Assembly: GCF_001513965.1 (NCBI RefSeq)
Contig: NZ_KQ948022.1
Coordinates: 194,850 to 258,849 of the forward strand
Direction of reading: 5' to 3'
Source: Streptomyces cellostaticus
GTDB lineage: Bacteria; Actinomycetota; Actinomycetes; Streptomycetales; Streptomycetaceae
Length of the DNA stretch: 64,000 nucleotides
Part shown: positions 30,087 to 53,009 of the stretch, piece after piece
How positions within the stretch are numbered: the first letter of the stretch is position 1
Layout: the number at the start of each line of letters is the position of its first letter
Notes under the pieces: model-generated
Seen by the model: the letters and a program-made list of their open reading frames with translations, nothing else
Told to the model about the DNA's origin: nothing
The model's database searches: none
Made by a program: the position numbers and the translations under genes

Positions 30087-30780
30087 TCAGGTCGGCTGTA
30101 CGAGGCCCGTGTCGTAGGCGAAGATCACGGCCTGGACGCGGTCGCGGGCGTCGATCTTGGTGAGGATGCGGTTGATGTGGGACTTGACGGTCGATTCGGC
30201 GAGGTGGAGGCGTTCGGCGATCTCACCGTCGGTCCAGCCGCCGGCGACGTCGGTGAGGACCTGGCGTTCCCGGTCGGTGAGGTCGGTGAGGTCGGTGAGG
30301 TCGGTGAGGTCGGTGAGGTCGGCGAGGCGGCGCTGCTGCTCGGGGGAGTGGCCGGGCAGGCGGTCGCTGAAGGCGTCGATGAGTTTGCGGGTGAGGCCGG
30401 GGGAGATGACCGCGTCTCCGGCTGCCACCGCGCGGACACCGGCGACGAGTTCCTCGGGCAGGGCGTCCTTGAGCAGGAAGCCGCTGGCGCCGGCACGCAG
30501 GGCGTCGTAGGCGTATTCGTCGAGGTCGAAGGTGGTCAGGACGAGGATGCGGGAGCGGCCGCCGGACTCGATGATGCGGCGGGTGGCCTCGATGCCGTCC
30601 ATGCCGGGCATGCGGACGTCCATCAGGACGACGTCGAGGCGCAGTCCGGCGGTCATACGGACCGCTTCGCTGCCGCCCGCGGCCTCGCCGACGACCATCA
30701 TGTCGGGGTGCTGTTCCATGAGCATGCTGAAGCCCATTGCGCTGCAGGGCCTGGTCGTCGACGATCAGGACGGTGGTCAT
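30087..30780 (-). pseudogene. Frameshifted NarL/LuxR-type response regulator
   Basis: The intact reading from ATG 30780 begins MTTVLIVDDQALQR, the acidic start of a receiver domain. One extra base near 30737-30738 then shifts the frame. The rest continues as GFSMLMEQHPDMMVVGEA, the phospho-acceptor context VVLMDVRMPGMDGIEA, a KDALPEEL helix and a C-terminal LuxR HTH (LHLAESTVKSHINRILTKID). Without correction, translation from the internal ATG at 30737 would lack the acidic pocket and first strand. The linker between domains carries an expanded LTD repeat. The ATG overlaps the stop of the kinase remnant (ATGA), so the two once formed an operon. Confidence 0.8.
30272..30325. repeat. 9-bp tandem repeat, six units, in response-regulator linker
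   Basis: GGTCGGTGA is repeated five times perfectly (30272-30316), and a sixth unit differs by one base. On the coding strand it gives repeated Leu-Thr-Asp just before the LuxR HTH, where relatives normally have one LTDRE. Units of nine bases keep the frame. Slipped-strand expansion is the likely origin. Confidence 0.9.
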
Positions 30781-34480: not shown

Positions 34481-36196
34481 GGCCGGCGCGAGCCGGTGGC
34501 CTGCGCGGACTGTGATCCGGATCGAGTCCCGTGGGCGGTCTCGCACGGGGCACATCCGTGCCCAGGCGTGAATGGCCGACGCGGCGAGGGCGAACGACGC
34601 CCAAGCAGGACGGTCGACCCAGCGCGCGCGAAGTCGCGTGTCGTCGTCGAACAGCACGGTGCAGCCCTGGTCGGCCTCTTCGACTGCGATCAGACCGCAC
34701 CCCGGGAAGCGAGCGGTGAAGTGGGACCACTTCACCGCGTCCGGCTCCGGATACCTCTCGCGCGGAAGCAGGAGCACATCGGCTGACCGGGGCCAACGGA
34801 GGTCGGGGTCGTCCGGGTCCGCGGCGAGATGGGCATCGCTGAGATGGCTCCTCCACGAGCGCTGGAGAGCACCGGGAAAGCGTTCCAGGGAGACGCTCGG
34901 TCCCAGGCTGCTGTCGCTCACCGTCGCGGAGACCAGCTTGGCATGCAGATGGGGAAGCCGACGACCGTGCGTGGACGGGGCGGACGGAATGGGTACCGCT
35001 CGGGTTGTCGCGGGATGCGATGGCTCCGGCAGCTGCAGCCAGGAGTAGAGAAGCCGGCGAATGAGGGCAGCGGACTTGCCGGGTTCCGATGTCACGCTCC
35101 GTCTCAGCCCGGCCAGCTTCGGGTCGTTGTGCTGGGTTTCGGCGGCGTGCGCAAGCTGGGCGGGGAGCGGTTGCGTTCGAGAAAGCCGGGGGACGAGTTC
35201 ACCCAGTCGCTGCATGGGGGATCCGGGAGCAACGACGGAATCCCGGAAAGCGCCGAGAATGCAGGGAATTCCGAGTGCGACTCCGTACATGGTCAATGAT
35301 CCATGGTCGCCTATCAGGAAATCAGCCGCGCACAGTGCGGATTTCCATACTTCCGTTTCGGGAGGTGGGAGGATGAGTCCTGCATCGATGAGCGGAGCCA
35401 GCCAGGTGCGCACTTGCCAAGCGCCATGTCCGTACCAGGCGTTGGGGTGTACGGCCGCCAATACGCGGAACTCGTCGGCGGGTAGCTCCGCGAGTGCTCG
35501 TCGCAACACGTCGGCCTGTGGTGAACCCAGGACGGAGCCTTTGCCCCAGGTCGAGGAGACGACCACCAGGCGCTGGCCGGGTAGCAGTCCGAGAGCCTGC
35601 TGATACGTCGAGCGGAAGGCGAGACCTGCGTTCAACTGGTCGAGACACGGGTCGCCTGCGACGTGGGCAACAGGCAGAGCCTGAGGGCAGCCGTCGGCAA
35701 GCCGATCGAGCTGTTCCGCATGGGACAACACGAGTGCCGAGGGAATCAGTCGCCCATCATGCACAAGCCATTCGTCCGTCAGGCCAAAGGCTCCCGGCTC
35801 CCGGCTCCCGGCTCCCGGCTCCCGGCGCAATTTTTTATTGTAGCCAGCTCCGTGGGGTGTACATATCAGCGGGAACCCTATCTTGTGGAGGTCTCCGCCC
35901 CGACTTGTGGCAACGGCAATATCGAAAGGGTGAGACACTGCCTCGTTCCACGGAAGGTGGAGCATGCCCCGCGAGGTAAGGAAGTCCCTCGTCCCTTCGT
36001 CGAGCGCAGACGAATCAGTGCATGAAAAGAACACCTGTACCCGCTCGTCACTCTCGAAGACAGACAGCAGATCCAACAACCGCGTGGCAGAGGTGACGTT
36101 GTGCACGACTCCCAGAACGCTGCGCTCAGCGAGTACCGTGCTCCAACGCCGCCCGTCACCGCGCAACGCAACTGGCAGCCGCCCTGCCTCGCCCAC
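34454..36196 (-). CDS. CDP-glycerol glycerophosphotransferase-like protein with a 7-bp repeat tract
   Basis: The 580-residue protein has a GT-B-like fold: LGVVHNVTSATRLLDLL, CTPHGAGYNKKL (about residues 110-121), VVVSSTWGKGSV and DHGSLTMYGVALGIPCI (the C-terminal donor-site helix). It resembles teichoic-acid-type CDP-glycerol transferases, but Streptomyces relatives are uncharacterised, and the acceptor is unknown. The C-terminal 200 residues are a separate, unrecognised domain. Immediately after NKKL the coding sequence contains five perfect GGCTCCC units (35789-35823; residues about 125-137), which encode a REPGAGSREPGA insert. A change of one unit would break the frame. GTG at 36196 follows GTGAGGTG. 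It converges with the STAND ATPase gene, overlapping it by 27 bp. Confidence 0.75.
   Translation of the reverse strand: MGEAGRLPVALRGDGRRWSTVLAERSVLGVVHNVTSATRLLDLLSVFESDERVQVFFSCTDSSALDEGTRDFLTSRGMLHLPWNEAVSHPFDIAVATSRGGDLHKIGFPLICTPHGAGYNKKLRREPGAGSREPGAFGLTDEWLVHDGRLIPSALVLSHAEQLDRLADGCPQALPVAHVAGDPCLDQLNAGLAFRSTYQQALGLLPGQRLVVVSSTWGKGSVLGSPQADVLRRALAELPADEFRVLAAVHPNAWYGHGAWQVRTWLAPLIDAGLILPPPETEVWKSALCAADFLIGDHGSLTMYGVALGIPCILGAFRDSVVAPGSPMQRLGELVPRLSRTQPLPAQLAHAAETQHNDPKLAGLRRSVTSEPGKSAALIRRLLYSWLQLPEPSHPATTRAVPIPSAPSTHGRRLPHLHAKLVSATVSDSSLGPSVSLERFPGALQRSWRSHLSDAHLAADPDDPDLRWPRSADVLLLPRERYPEPDAVKWSHFTARFPGCGLIAVEEADQGCTVLFDDDTRLRARWVDRPAWASFALAASAIHAWARMCPVRDRPRDSIRITVRAGHRLAPALVEFVPVG
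35789..35823. repeat. Five perfect 7-bp tandem repeats inside a coding region
   Basis: GGCTCCC is repeated five times without error, next to an A6/T6 run (35832-35837 region) in the same gene. Seven is not a multiple of three, so gain or loss of a unit by slippage would shift the reading frame of the transferase-like gene. This is the classical structure of a contingency (phase-variable) locus. Confidence 0.93.
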
Positions 36197-47244: not shown

Positions 47245-49782
47245 TCAGGATTCCTTCGGGCGGGCCAAGGCCGTGACCTCGGTCGCGCTCAGCGTTCTGC
47301 CGTAGACCCGGAAGTCGTCTACGGCCGCCTTCAGATACGGGTCGGAGTACTGGGACCTGCCGATGTACGCGGCCCTGATGTGGTTGCCGAAGTAGCGGGG
47401 CTCCACGGTGACCGCCGTGTTCCGGCCCGCCTCCTGGCCGTCGACGTGTGGCACGGCGGTGCCGGCTCCGTAGGTCACGGCCACATGGACCCAGTGGTCC
47501 GTCGGCAGCGGGTCGGCGTTGATGCGCTGCTCCGCGCCCCCGCCTGACGCGGTGATCGCGTACCGCAGGGTTCCGGCGTCGCTCAGGGGGGTCAGGAACA
47601 TGTTGGCGCTGACCCCGGTGCCGAAGTCGAAGATCCGGCTCCAGGCGGCCGGCTGTCCGGCCAGTTTCACCCAGGTCGCCACCGAGTAGGCGGACGCACC
47701 CGCCAACAGGTCCTCTGCGAGGGCGACATGACCGTCCTCCCCGTCCAGGGCCACGGCGCCGCCCATGTGTCCCTGGGTCCAGGAGGCGCCGCCCGCGAGA
47801 GTGGCCGTGCTGCCGTTGCCGCTGGCGTCCGCAGCCGTCGTGCCGGAGGTCTCGTCGAAGGGGTACCAGGCGGCGAACTGCGGGGGAGGGGACGGGGGCT
47901 GACCGGTCAGCCAGTAGACGTTGTAGTACTGGTGGTGGACGCGGGCGATGGGCAGCAGTGTGATCGCCTTGCCGTCGGCGGTCGCGGTGAACCGCAGCGG
48001 AGCGGCCGACGTCTGCCGGAGGGTGGAGGTGTCCAGGCGGGGCATCCAGGTGCTCGCCGTGTCGCCGTACGCCCCGGCCAGCACGACCGGTCCGTGCAGT
48101 ACGGCCTTCACGTCCGGGTCGTCGGGGGTGGCCTCCATGGTCGTACGCATCGGCAGGGAGACCTCGACGCGGTCGCCACGGCGCCAGGTGCGGTCCAGGG
48201 TCAGCCAGGCGCCGGCCGCCGGACGGTTCGACAGGGTACGGCCGTTGAGCTTGACACGGGCTCCGGCGGCCCAGCCGGGGATGCGGACGAGCAGTTGGTG
48301 GGCGGCGCCGCCGGCGGTGACGGTGAGCACCGTCGAGGAGGCGTCGGGCAGGGTGGTGGTCTGCCGCCAGGTGATGTTCTTCTCCTGCCAGTTCACCTCG
48401 GACGGGATGAACAGGTTGACCAGCAGCCGCTGTTCGTCGTGCGTGTAGATCGTGTCGGCGAACTTCGCGTGCGTCTCCATGCCGGTTCCGTGGTCGCAGG
48501 AGAAGTTGTCGTAGTCGGTGGAGTAGGCGTTCGGGTCCGTGCCCATGAAGGACGGCTGCTGTTTGAAGGAGCCGGGGCCGAGGCCGGTGTAGTAGATGTC
48601 GAAGCCGTGCGCGGAGTCCGGGTCCTGCTCGCCGAGCATCTGGTTGAACAGGGTGCGCTCGTAGTAGTCGAGCAGGTCGGTGCGGTCCGGGTCCTCGAAG
48701 TGCAGCAGCCGGGTCAGCTTGAGCATGTTGTAGCTGTTGCAGTTCTCGCAGGTGCCGTTGGACAACTGGCCCGCGACGACGTCCGGTTCGTGGAAGGCCT
48801 CGCCGTTGCTGTTGCCGCCGATGACGTAGGAGTGGTGGTCGGTGACGAGCTGCCAGAAGTTCCGGGCGATCGTGCGGTAGCGGTCGGGCAGGCTCTCCTG
48901 CCACAGCCGTATCGCCCCGACCATCTTCGGGATCTGGGTGTTGGCGTGCAGTCCCGCGAGCCGGTCCTCGCCCGCTGCCAGGGGGTCGAAGACGCGGGCG
49001 TGGGTGAAGCGCTGGGCGACGTCCAGCCAGACGGCTTCGCCGGTGATCGCGTGCAGGTCGGCGAGGACGTCGTTCATGCCGCCGAACTCGGTCTCCAGGA
49101 CCCGTTGCATCTGCTCGTAACTCAGCTTGCCCGTACGGAGGTTCACCCACTCGCCCAGGTGCAGCACCACGTCGAGGGCCTGCTCGTTCCCGGCCAGCCG
49201 GTACTGGTCGACCAGCCCCGCCATGATCTTGTGCAGGGTGTAGTACGGCGCCCAGACGCCCGTCCCGGCCTCCAGCCGGTGGAAGAAGCTCTCCGGGAAG
49301 GCCGATAGATACCCCTTGCCGTATCCGGCCGACGGGGACGCGGCCTGGCAGGCGGCCAGGGCCGCGACAAGCCGGCGGCCCTTGTCGTGCAGCGCGGTGT
49401 CACCGGTGGCAGCGAACGTGAGGGCGAGGCCGGACAGGAGGTGTCCGGTGGAGTGGCCGCGCAGTTCGACGGTCGGGCCCTCCCAGCCGCCGCACGGCTG
49501 GGCGGTACTGGGCAGGCCGGCGTTGAGGCGGAAGGTGTGCAGTAACCGGTTGATGTCGACGAAGCGCAGATAGGCGGTGTTGCGGCTCTGGTTGTCCTGG
49601 AACGGGCCGGCCAGCAAGGACACCGCGGTGAGCGGGAACGGCCTTGCCCGGGTGGCCTGTTGACGAGGTGAACCGGCGGGGCGTGGCGTGGCCTGGGCTG
49701 CCGGGCCGTCCGTCACGGTCAGGGCCGCTGCGGCCGCGCCGGCCGCGGTGAGGAAGTGCCGTCTGCCGAGGGGTGGGGTCAC
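47245..49782 (-). CDS. Tat-exported GH127-type beta-L-arabinofuranosidase with LamG domain
   Basis: The 845-residue precursor has a twin-arginine signal (GRRHFLTAAGAAAAALT). The (alpha/alpha)6 catalytic domain (about 45-600, formerly DUF1680) contains AYLRFVDINRLLHTFRLNAGL, ELRGHSTGHLLSGLAL, NGTCENCNSYNMLKL and NFSCDHGTGMETHAKFADTIY, the Glu/Cys segments that hold zinc and the catalytic Cys in GH127 enzymes. A LamG/concanavalin-like domain follows (about 635-840), ending RVYGRTLSATEVTALA, possibly carbohydrate-binding. The enzyme would release L-arabinofuranose from plant glycans outside the cell. GTG at 49782 follows GGAGGAC. The promoter region holds two operator-like palindromes, one resembling a CebR box. 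A GH2 fragment follows the stop. Confidence 0.87.
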   Translation of the reverse strand: MTPPLGRRHFLTAAGAAAAALTVTDGPAAQATPRPAGSPRQQATRARPFPLTAVSLLAGPFQDNQSRNTAYLRFVDINRLLHTFRLNAGLPSTAQPCGGWEGPTVELRGHSTGHLLSGLALTFAATGDTALHDKGRRLVAALAACQAASPSAGYGKGYLSAFPESFFHRLEAGTGVWAPYYTLHKIMAGLVDQYRLAGNEQALDVVLHLGEWVNLRTGKLSYEQMQRVLETEFGGMNDVLADLHAITGEAVWLDVAQRFTHARVFDPLAAGEDRLAGLHANTQIPKMVGAIRLWQESLPDRYRTIARNFWQLVTDHHSYVIGGNSNGEAFHEPDVVAGQLSNGTCENCNSYNMLKLTRLLHFEDPDRTDLLDYYERTLFNQMLGEQDPDSAHGFDIYYTGLGPGSFKQQPSFMGTDPNAYSTDYDNFSCDHGTGMETHAKFADTIYTHDEQRLLVNLFIPSEVNWQEKNITWRQTTTLPDASSTVLTVTAGGAAHQLLVRIPGWAAGARVKLNGRTLSNRPAAGAWLTLDRTWRRGDRVEVSLPMRTTMEATPDDPDVKAVLHGPVVLAGAYGDTASTWMPRLDTSTLRQTSAAPLRFTATADGKAITLLPIARVHHQYYNVYWLTGQPPSPPPQFAAWYPFDETSGTTAADASGNGSTATLAGGASWTQGHMGGAVALDGEDGHVALAEDLLAGASAYSVATWVKLAGQPAAWSRIFDFGTGVSANMFLTPLSDAGTLRYAITASGGGAEQRINADPLPTDHWVHVAVTYGAGTAVPHVDGQEAGRNTAVTVEPRYFGNHIRAAYIGRSQYSDPYLKAAVDDFRVYGRTLSATEVTALARPKES

Positions 49783-49844
49783 GAAGTCCTCCGCATGTCG
49801 AGGGTGTGGGGCGGAGAGTCCCGTTCCCGCCCCACTGGCTGTTG

Positions 49845-49858
49845 TTCGAGATATCGAA
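49845..49858. promoter_or_regulatory. Inverted repeat TTCGA-GATA-TCGAA
   Basis: A 14-bp inverted repeat about 63 bp upstream of the GH127 start and about 20-35 bp downstream of its predicted transcription start. Position and symmetry suggest a repressor site for the glycosidase gene. Confidence 0.5.
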
Positions 49859-49886
49859 GACTGTGCGACATGCTGTGCGGGGATCT

Positions 49887-49914
49887 ACGGTAGAGGACCG
49901 ACTCCTGATGTCAA
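49887..49914 (-). promoter_or_regulatory. Promoter of the GH127 gene
   Basis: On the minus strand TTGACA (49909-49914) and TACCGT (49887-49892) are spaced by 16 bp, close to the principal sigma factor consensus. Transcription would begin near 49880, leaving a leader of about 100 bases that contains the TTCGA inverted repeat. Confidence 0.6.
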
Positions 49915-49945
49915 TGACACGGGGGGAGAGTGCGCGACCTGGTCG

Positions 49946-49959
49946 CGGGAGCGCTCCCA
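49946..49959. promoter_or_regulatory. CebR-like operator (CGGGAGCGCTCCCA)
   Basis: The 14-bp sequence matches the cellulose-utilisation repressor box TGGGAGCGCTCCCA of Streptomyces at 13 of 14 positions. It lies about 32 bp upstream of the GH127 -35 box. It suggests that the hemicellulase is part of the cello-oligosaccharide response. Confidence 0.55.
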
Positions 49960-50109
49960 TGGCACCATGGCGCGGCTCCATCAGGGATGCGGAGCGGAGC
50001 CGTTGCATCGAACGGACGGCCGAGGCGGCGAGGGCGACGTCAACCCGTCGTACGGCGCGTTCACCGACCAGGAACTCGCCATCACCATCTGAGGTCAGGG
50101 TGAGGGGAC

Positions 50110-51303
50110 TCAGTCCTCTCCGTGCCTGCCGTGCTGTCTCTCCTTGCCCTGCCGGTGGCGCTCCTGGGCGGGCCTCTTCGTGTCGGCGCCCTCGCGGTGC
50201 TCCGCCGGTGGGGAAGGGGCGGTCGCCGACGGCACGTCGGACAGTGGAGTCCCGCCGACGGGAGTCGAGCCGGAGGGAGCGGGTGATGACGGGGTGCCGT
50301 CGGGGGAGTTCAGGTTCGCGCCGACAGCCGCAGCCACCGCGAACAGCAGCACGCCCGCCCCGCCCAGCACGGCCCGCGTGGCCCGGCTGCGGTGATTCCT
50401 CCCACGGGAGCGTGCGGACCGTGCGCCGCCGACGGCGCGGTGCGCAGGCGGCGGAGGCTCCACAGCCGACGGGGGCGCAGTGGCCTGTGGCCGCTCCTCG
50501 TACCGGGCCCCGGCCAGCCAGGCCGCCGCCTGCTCCGCGGTGGGGCGGTGCGCGGGGTCCTTGGCCAGCATGCCGAGGACGTAGTCGGCCAACGGGGCCG
50601 GTATCCCGGCGCGCAGGTGCGAGGGCGGTACGGGCACGGCGTCGACCTGCTGATGCACCACCGCCAGAGCGGTCGCGCCGCGGAACGGCGGTCGGCCGGT
50701 GAGCAGTTCGTACAGCACGCAGCCGAGCGCATAGACGTCGGAGGCCGGCTGCGCGGGGCGCCCGAGGGCCCGTTCGGGAGCCAGGTAGTCGGCGGTGCCG
50801 ACGACCCTCCCGGTGGCCGTCAGGTTACCGGCGACGTCGTCGGCGAAGCGGGCGATGCCGAAGTCCGTGATCTTCGCGGTGCGGTCGGTGGTCAGCATCA
50901 CGTTGGCCGGTTTGACGTCCCGGTGGACCACCCCCTGGGCGTGTGCGGCGGACAGCCCCGCCGCGATCTGCGCCGCGACGGCCGCCGCCTCCTGCGGGGG
51001 CAGGGTGCCGCGCAGGGAGCGCTCCTGGGCCAGGGGCCAGCCGTCGATGAGCTCCATGACCAGGTAGAGCCGGCCCTGGTGGGAGCCGAAGTCGTACACG
51101 CCCACCACATGAGGGTGGTTGAGGCGGCCCGCAGTCTGTGCCTCCAGCCGGAAGCGCTCGGTGTCCGCCGCCTCTTCCGTGCGCAGGAGCTTCACCGCCA
51201 CCGCACGATCCAGCGTGCGGTCCGTGGCTCGCCACACCTCACCCATGGCGCCGCGTCCCAGCGGCTCGTCCAAGTGGTAGCGATCCGCCAGCAGCAGTCC
51301 CAC
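50110..51303 (-). CDS. Membrane Ser/Thr protein kinase (PknB-like)
   Basis: The 397-residue protein has a kinase domain (about 9-265): glycine loop GRGAMGEV (16-23), Lys38 in VAVK, HRD129VKPANV (catalytic Asp), and DFG (147-149). A basic segment and one transmembrane helix (about 310-330, VLGGAGVLLFAVAAAVGA) lead to a short extracellular Pro/Ser/Thr-rich tail; there are no PASTA repeats. Such kinases phosphorylate proteins in the cytoplasm in response to surface signals. GTG at 51303 is preferred because GAAGGGACG precedes it; a TTG at 51369 gives a longer, less likely N-terminus. The partner phosphatase may be another gene; a SpoIIE-type phosphatase lies 2 kb away, with no evidence of direct linkage. 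Confidence 0.9.
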   Translation of the reverse strand: MGLLLADRYHLDEPLGRGAMGEVWRATDRTLDRAVAVKLLRTEEAADTERFRLEAQTAGRLNHPHVVGVYDFGSHQGRLYLVMELIDGWPLAQERSLRGTLPPQEAAAVAAQIAAGLSAAHAQGVVHRDVKPANVMLTTDRTAKITDFGIARFADDVAGNLTATGRVVGTADYLAPERALGRPAQPASDVYALGCVLYELLTGRPPFRGATALAVVHQQVDAVPVPPSHLRAGIPAPLADYVLGMLAKDPAHRPTAEQAAAWLAGARYEERPQATAPPSAVEPPPPAHRAVGGARSARSRGRNHRSRATRAVLGGAGVLLFAVAAAVGANLNSPDGTPSSPAPSGSTPVGGTPLSDVPSATAPSPPAEHREGADTKRPAQERHRQGKERQHGRHGED

Positions 51304-51459
51304 CTGCGTCCCTTCACGCTCGACGACAACCTGCGCCGTGACAGCCAATGACCGACCATGCGGACGCAATGGTGGCGCTACAAGATCATCTTATCGAAGT
51401 GACGGGTGCCCATGCGTCGGGCGGCCCGGCGTGCGGAGCCGTCCGTACCGGGCGCTCAC

Positions 51460-51600
51460 CCGGGGTGGGCACACGTGCCGGCAGCCGCCGCGTTCGCACT
51501 GCTCGCCTCGCTGAAGCCCGCCGGGCTCGTGCGCTCGCGCCGCGAGGGCCGCCGGCAGGTCTGCTCCGTCGACGGCCCCGACGTCGTGACCGTCGTCCGG
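51460..51600 (+). pseudogene. Remnant of an ArsR-type regulator gene
   Basis: One plus-strand frame reads AFALLASLKPAGLVRSRREGRRQVCSVDGP, matching the recognition helix/wing part of ArsR-family repressors (typically HL..L..AGLVRSRREGRR..Y..D). There is no N-terminal helix or start codon of that gene and the following sequence is not ArsR-like. The wing section is also present in the second copy of the 345-bp duplication. Confidence 0.5.
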
Positions 51601-52230
51601 GTGATGATCGGCCGGCTGACCGTCCTCTCGCAGCGCGCGGCGATCATGGCAGGGATGCCGGGCGCGCATCGGTGTCCGGCGTACCCATGGTCTGCGGGCA
51701 CACGGCCGCTCGCTGAAGCCCTGGCGGTCATCCGGCAGCTGACCGAAGGCGGCGTCGGCCGGCGGCCTTCCCGCATCGCACGCATTCGGCCTGGTCCTCG
51801 GCCGGCACGTGAAGCGCGGCCGGGGGCGACCGGGCGGGCTGGGGAACCGCCGTCTGAGCTGCGGCTTGTCTTGCCTGGGCCGGGCCGCGAGGGCCGACGG
51901 CAGGTCTGCTCCGTCGACGGCCCCGACGTCGTGGCCGTCGTCCGGGTGATGACCGGCCGGCTGACCGTCCTCTCGCAGCACGCGGCGATCATGGCAGGGA
52001 TGCCGGGCGCGCACCGGTGTCCGGCGTACCCATGCTCTGCGGGCACACGGCCGCTCGCTGAAGCCCTGGCGGTCATCCGGCAGCTGACCGAAGGCGGCGT
52101 CGGCCGGCGGCCTTCCCGCATCGCACGCATTCGGCCTGGTCCTCGGCCGGCACGTGAAGCGCGGCCGGGGGCGACCGGGCGGGCTGGGGAACCGCCGTCT
52201 GAGCTGCGGCTTGTCTTGCCTGGGCCGGGC
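51541..52230. repeat. Near-perfect tandem duplication of 345 bp
   Basis: Copy 1 is 51541-51885 and copy 2 is 51886-52230; I counted about half a dozen base differences. The unit starts inside the ArsR remnant and ends 20 bp before the IclR gene, and it contains no recognisable gene. The unit length is divisible by three, so a plus-strand frame crosses both copies without a stop, but the translation looks like a shadow of GC-rich DNA. Recent duplication by unequal exchange or replication slippage is likely. The duplicated block also covers the probable promoter zone of the downstream regulator. Confidence 0.92.
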
Positions 52231-52250
52231 GCGCGGGGCAGGCTGTTCGT

Positions 52251-53009
52251 ATGGGTGCCCCCGACAGCCCCACGCTCATCACGTCCGTACAGCGGGCCTT
52301 CCGCCTGCTGGAGGCGGTGAGCGCGCACGCGAACGGCGCGCCGGCGAAGCAGCTGGCACGGGAGACGGGCCTGCCTCTGGCCACCGCGTATCACCTGTTG
52401 CGGACGCTGGTCCACGACGGATACGTGCGGAAGCTGGCCGACGGCGGATTCGTCCTGGGCGACAAGTTGCAGACGCTGCACGCCGAAGGCCGCGCGCAGG
52501 TCCTGCTGAGCCGGGTCCGTCCGGCGCTCGCCGCGCTGCGGGACGAGCTCGCCGCAGCGACCTACCTCACCTTCTACGAGGAGGGCGAGATCAGGGTCGC
52601 CGAGATCGTCGACAGCCCCCGTACGCCCCGGGTCGACCTCTGGGTGGGAATGGAGGACGCGGGACACGCCACCGCGCTGGGCAAGTCCGTGCTGCGCGAA
52701 CTGGATGACGACTCCCGCCGGGACTACCTCTCCCGGCACCACCTGGCCGACCTCACGCCACGCACCATCACCAGTCTCCCGGAACTGCTCCGAAGACTGG
52801 ACTCGCCCCCCATGGCCCCGGCCGTCACGGACCTCGAGGAGTACGCCCTCGGCACGGTGTGCGTCGCGGTGCCCGTCTACCGCGGGGACACGCTCGGCTC
52901 GCTCGGTGTCTCGGTGCCGGCCGAGCGGCTCTCACGGCTCCAGGAGATCCGGGAGCGGCTGATCCCGATCGCGAACCGGGTGACCAGGAGCCTCTCGCTC
53001 ACTATCTGA
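52251..53009 (+). CDS. IclR-family transcriptional regulator
   Basis: The 252-residue protein has a winged HTH (about residues 8-70: SVQRAFRLLEAVSAHANGAPAKQLARETGLPLATAYHLLRTL) and a C-terminal effector domain (ATYLTFYEEGEIRVAEIV, HATALGKSVL, YALGTVCVAVPV). IclR proteins control catabolic or sporulation genes; the target is unknown. There is no ribosome site directly before the ATG. The upstream sequence is the second copy of the 345-bp duplication, so this promoter region has been rearranged. The phosphatase gene follows about 100 bp downstream in the same direction. Confidence 0.87.
   Translation: MGAPDSPTLITSVQRAFRLLEAVSAHANGAPAKQLARETGLPLATAYHLLRTLVHDGYVRKLADGGFVLGDKLQTLHAEGRAQVLLSRVRPALAALRDELAAATYLTFYEEGEIRVAEIVDSPRTPRVDLWVGMEDAGHATALGKSVLRELDDDSRRDYLSRHHLADLTPRTITSLPELLRRLDSPPMAPAVTDLEEYALGTVCVAVPVYRGDTLGSLGVSVPAERLSRLQEIRERLIPIANRVTRSLSLTI

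Follow-up and report, generated by a model that had tools for sequence, protein, structure and literature searches.

The spacer between two divergent genes of Streptomyces cellostaticus, one for a Ser/Thr protein kinase and one for an IclR-family regulator, contains a 345-bp segment in two head-to-tail copies. In all likelihood, the spacer is decaying and the segment underwent a neutral tandem duplication, giving two copies. It lies in a 64,000-nucleotide stretch of contig NZ_KQ948022.1 (C8 in our numbering), referred to here as the window, in which all positions are given unless a contig or locus is named. Immediately before its first base lies a run of 724 Ns (C8 194126-194849), so the window is part of a scaffold with gaps. 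The features discussed below are as follows.

50110-51369, minus strand: Ser/Thr protein kinase gene, divergent, on the far side of the spacer (open reading frame as listed, with a provisional start codon)
51479-51640, plus strand: remnant of an ArsR-family gene; an internal, in-frame deletion of 111 bp at about 51502-51510 has removed the HTH region
51539-51885, plus strand: copy 1, the 345-bp unit plus the 2-bp microhomology GC at 51884-51885
51884-52230, plus strand: copy 2, with 6 substitutions relative to copy 1, all within the first 152 bp
51884-51985, plus strand: second ArsR C-terminal piece, further truncated, at the start of copy 2
52216-52221, plus strand: -35 element of the IclR promoter, TTGCCT, within copy 2
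52239-52244, plus strand: -10 element of the IclR promoter, CAGGCT, outside the repeat and 6 nt before the ATG
52251-53009, plus strand: IclR-family regulator gene, 252 aa, with HTH_IclR and IclR_C domains

Geometry of the duplication

A repeat search, Tandem Repeats Finder (TRF) and alignment of the copies all give an offset of 345 bp. The copies are adjacent, in direct orientation and share a single junction; they are identical at 341 of 347 compared positions (98.3%), with no gaps. The two bases by which they overlap are the sole sequence common to the repeat ends. The left end falls within ArsR-derived sequence and the right end 20 bp upstream of the IclR ATG. The initial annotation had described a recent duplication of about 98% identity with these two endpoints and without an insertion element, and the alignment and the mapped ends agree with it; its 51460-52250 placement of the 345-bp duplication was too wide at either end. 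The data support a fairly young and probably real event, and the duplication is very probably both real and ordinary. Its TRF score, 1344, is the highest among 17 TRF rows in the window. Other short repeats in the window include a perfect 7-bp repeat, GGCTCCC, at 35789-35826 (5.4 copies), whose length is not divisible by 3 and which might vary from cell to cell if it lies within a gene, and a 9-bp repeat, GGTCGGTGA, at 30272-30327 (6.2 copies).

The sharp ends of the unit could suggest a mobile element or MITE inserted beside a copy of itself, a reading that is improbable in the extreme. No full copy of the unit was found elsewhere in the 9.8-Mb genome, where the unit matches only itself and, through its ArsR part, two paralogues. 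No inverted repeats of at least 16 nt pair the unit ends. Thus, the unit has neither the terminal inverted repeats nor the dispersed copies expected of an insertion sequence or MITE. In a plasmid collection, 3 records gave matches, all limited to parts of the IclR gene or to the ArsR piece.

Content of the unit

The deleted HTH, the absence of a Pfam match and the nearly unmatched remainder mark the unit as the end of a dead ArsR gene plus DNA lacking good relatives. At the DNA level, the ArsR part shows 82% and 77% identity to two paralogues in the same genome, on contigs C7 and C18, both of which match the Pfam family HTH_5. The remnant resembles these and other Streptomyces ArsR/SmtB genes in its C-terminal part and differs in lacking 111 bp of the HTH region and in having its last part doubled. 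The missing segment, a multiple of three in length, corresponds to the HTH, and the gap is identical against all 14 ArsR loci that align on either side of it, from 33 loci entered in the comparison. The open reading frames of the remnant match no Pfam family, and no intact winged HTH (HTH_5) was found in them. At E 1e-8, sequences similar to region 51420-51883 occur in 81 of the 294 other Streptomyces genomes searched. The 234 bp that follow the ArsR part yielded three weak partial matches among 391 other Streptomyces genomes (E 1e-5).

Two long open reading frames run through both copies:

51406-52320, plus strand: long open reading frame, 304 aa, open across both copies, with no sign of being a gene
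51456-52742, minus strand: long open reading frame, 428 aa, open across both copies, with no sign of being a gene

Together with a repeat length divisible by three, these frames might suggest that a 115-codon in-frame repeat belongs to a real protein. However, the plus-strand frame has no Pfam match, four of the six changes are non-synonymous in it, and the last 230 bp or so of the unit have very few matches. GC-rich DNA often contains long open frames, and a period divisible by three helps them to stay open across both copies. A coding function is therefore barely credible.

The spacer among relatives

The 80 closest relatives of the IclR protein, all from Streptomyces records except one titled only Actinobacteria bacterium, share DNA similarity with the window from about the IclR start (about 52160-52251) into the SpoIIE-type phosphatase gene that follows; in three of them the similarity is split into two pieces. 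At E 1e-5, blastn found no match on either strand between window positions 48251-52213 and the loci of these 80 relatives, a sample that may omit records very close to the source genome. The kinase gene has many homologues; among the matches listed, none extends past 51332, a position still within the gene. The unit is absent from every sampled relative, and no single-copy version of the locus was seen in them. As far as sampled, the arrangement at this locus is private to the source lineage.

The upstream DNA of the relatives also differs widely from species to species. Up to 4 kb was available for each, except for four loci (L090, L103, L109 and L141) with only 44, 2871, 1370 and 169 bp. By the DNA adjoining the gene, the 76 relatives whose upstream stretch is complete form 52 groups, 42 of them single; when matches anywhere in the 4 kb are counted, they form 36 groups, 20 of them single. 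With so many groups, the IclR upstream spacer is evidently a site of frequent change.

The IclR promoter

The gene next to the repeat is a clear IclR family member, scoring 59.3 bits for HTH_IclR and 86.6 bits for IclR_C against cut-offs of 22 and 24. When the 80 related genes are aligned at the start codon, a block from about -37 to -1 is conserved, and upstream of about -38 conservation is low. The pattern TTG(C/T)NN, a spacer and NANNNT with C as its first base fits 78 of the 80. The spacer is 17 bp in 77 of these and 18 bp in one, and the -10 element is separated from the start codon by 6 bases in 75 and by 7 in three. The remaining two, L144 and L145, have TAGGCT or TACGCT at the -10 place and no TTG hexamer ahead of it. 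The window promoter (52213-52250) reads TTGCCT, 17 bp, CAGGCT, 6 bases, ATG, and is thus of the vegetative type that the fitting relatives share. A sigma-70 scan found nothing, but it also missed this conserved promoter and is uninformative for the region.

The -10 element lies so near the start codon that the IclR message is probably leaderless, as messages in Streptomyces commonly are. According to PMC4895711, 21.0% of primary starts in Streptomyces coelicolor give leaderless mRNAs, and the leaderless Streptomyces promoters described there have TANNNT at -10 and NTGACC at -35. The IclR promoter resembles these in the 17-bp distance between its hexamers and in a -10 element that ends 6 nt before the AUG, whereas the -10 elements of the window and of the 78 fitting relatives start with C rather than T.

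The repeat ends at 52230, in the spacer of this promoter between the -35 and -10 elements. The initial annotation had proposed that the promoter zone is duplicated, which the endpoint contradicts, since only the -35 element and non-conserved upstream DNA are doubled. Copy 1 carries an orphan twin of the -35 element at 51871-51876, with CCGACG in place of a -10 element at 17 bp. Lacking a -10 element at the right distance, this twin does not amount to a second promoter; the real promoter is single and intact. One complete promoter is kept, with its -35 element in copy 2 and its -10 element just outside, so IclR expression is probably unchanged and the duplication probably has no effect on the gene.

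Alternatively, the second copy could add operator or promoter sequence, alter IclR regulation and have been selected. A right end within the promoter spacer and the doubling of upstream DNA that includes a -35 element fit this idea, as does a weak terminator-like stem that is also doubled (51849-51865 and 52194-52210). Against it, the orphan -35 element has no partner, and no conserved operator is seen, because the 80 relatives are poorly conserved upstream of about -38 and none of them has this DNA. A structured RNA was also considered and rejected, since an Rfam search with E values up to 1 gave no match, a result that likewise speaks against regulation. Selection for altered IclR regulation is accordingly very unlikely.

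Differences between the copies and the assembly

The six substitutions lie at 51552, 51589, 51608, 51635, 51669 and 51690 in copy 1 coordinates. None lies beyond the unit's first 152 bp; the remaining 195 bp are identical. The clustering has P 0.0067 for falling at that end and P 0.039 for occupying so short a span, both calculated post hoc. Simple duplication followed by random mutation is insufficient to explain it, and one has to invoke either chance or a subsequent gene conversion between the copies, both of which are also possible reasons for the stretch of 195 identical bp. Four of the six substitutions are transitions, and four are non-synonymous in the ArsR frame, which fits an absence of constraint. 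Comparison with aligned ArsR sequences suggests which copy changed. The base of copy 1 is present in 26 of 26 sequences at 51608 and in 21 of 31 at 51589, and since it prevails there, copy 2 looks derived at these two sites. The base of copy 1 is also the commonest at 51552 (16 of 33), and only 7 sequences align at 51635.

The assembly is a 9.84-Mb draft in 129 contigs, and the duplication could in principle be an artefact in which overlapping contig ends, or the sequences of two strain variants, stand side by side unmerged although the genome has only one copy. Gaps filled with Ns do occur, with runs of 724, 677 and 471 in 380 kb of C8. Moreover, copy 2 has its six differences at its left end, which is where a second contig would start, and the rarer bases that copy 2 carries at 51589 and 51608 are compatible with such a join. 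However, the junction itself contains no N, the nearest N run being about 40 kb off, and differences at 1.7% of positions, four of six of them transitions, would exceed what read error is expected to produce. The six differences and the lack of Ns at the junction both argue against unmerged contig ends. Other duplications in the genome (see below) differ by 4 to 9 bases between copies, which fits events of various ages. An artefact is thus unlikely, and we favor a real duplication.

Other tandem duplications in the genome

Two-copy arrays with a period of at least 150 and TRF matches of at least 95% were counted with the same TRF settings throughout. Five occur in 1.18 Mb of the source genome (380 kb of C8 and 400 kb each of contigs C1 and C2):

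C8:2044 (L172:2044-2404): period 178, 95-98% matches
C8:100443 (L177:443-929): period 234, 95-98% matches
C8:136320 (L178:16320-16797): period 244, 95-98% matches
C8:246388: period 345, the duplication beside the IclR gene
C1:252489 (L203:12489-12944): period 224, 95-98% matches

No such array was found in 1.88 Mb of other Streptomyces sequence, made up of 800 kb from four genomes, 400 kb from one and 683 kb around the 80 IclR genes, in which one IclR locus (L072, in G212), if not more, is counted twice. The nearest miss is an array in G151 (period 216, 94%) that overlaps other periods; one in G033 (period 173, 84%) is further off. If arrays arose at equal rates, the chance of all five falling in the source genome would be about 0.0085, or 0.022 without the 345-bp array, in a post hoc calculation in which C8 holds four of the five arrays and the samples are unmatched for chromosome place. 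The C1:252489 segment is present in one copy in the five relatives examined (the best 5 of 57 with a match, among 149), which is compatible with a real event and an artefact alike; as far as examined, its duplication is private to the source lineage. It is possible, if rather doubtful, that two-copy tandem duplications of about 180-350 bp build up more quickly in this strain than in related ones, an altered repair or replication function being one conceivable cause, and that the duplication in the window is one sample of this process.

Origin and significance

Short two-copy tandem duplications in bacteria can arise by illegitimate recombination or replication slippage. The case described here resembles known examples in its head-to-tail copies, scant end homology, unconstrained DNA and lack of a visible insertion sequence, and differs in having all its substitutions near one end of the unit. 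With two shared bases and no mobile-element features detected, one of these two routes is the likely cause. In the proposed series of events, the ArsR-family gene would first have lost 111 bp of its HTH region. The segment from its C-terminal part to a point in the IclR promoter spacer would then have been doubled in tandem through illegitimate recombination (end joining) or slippage during replication, with no more than 2 bp in common at the ends, leaving the IclR gene with one complete promoter. The work on Streptomyces ambofaciens reported in PMC5869714 describes an illegitimate repair of double-strand breaks that depends on Ku and ligase and whose scars show microhomologies and sometimes inserted sequence from nearby. 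Literature searches with limited queries returned no description of the 345-bp duplication.

Taken alone, the 345-bp duplication matters little: it is a case of decayed intergenic DNA growing through duplication without damage to the neighboring promoter. Its analysis yielded, as a by-product, a conserved and probably leaderless promoter for an IclR gene that is widespread in Streptomyces. It also provides a hint of a possible excess of small tandem duplications in the source genome.
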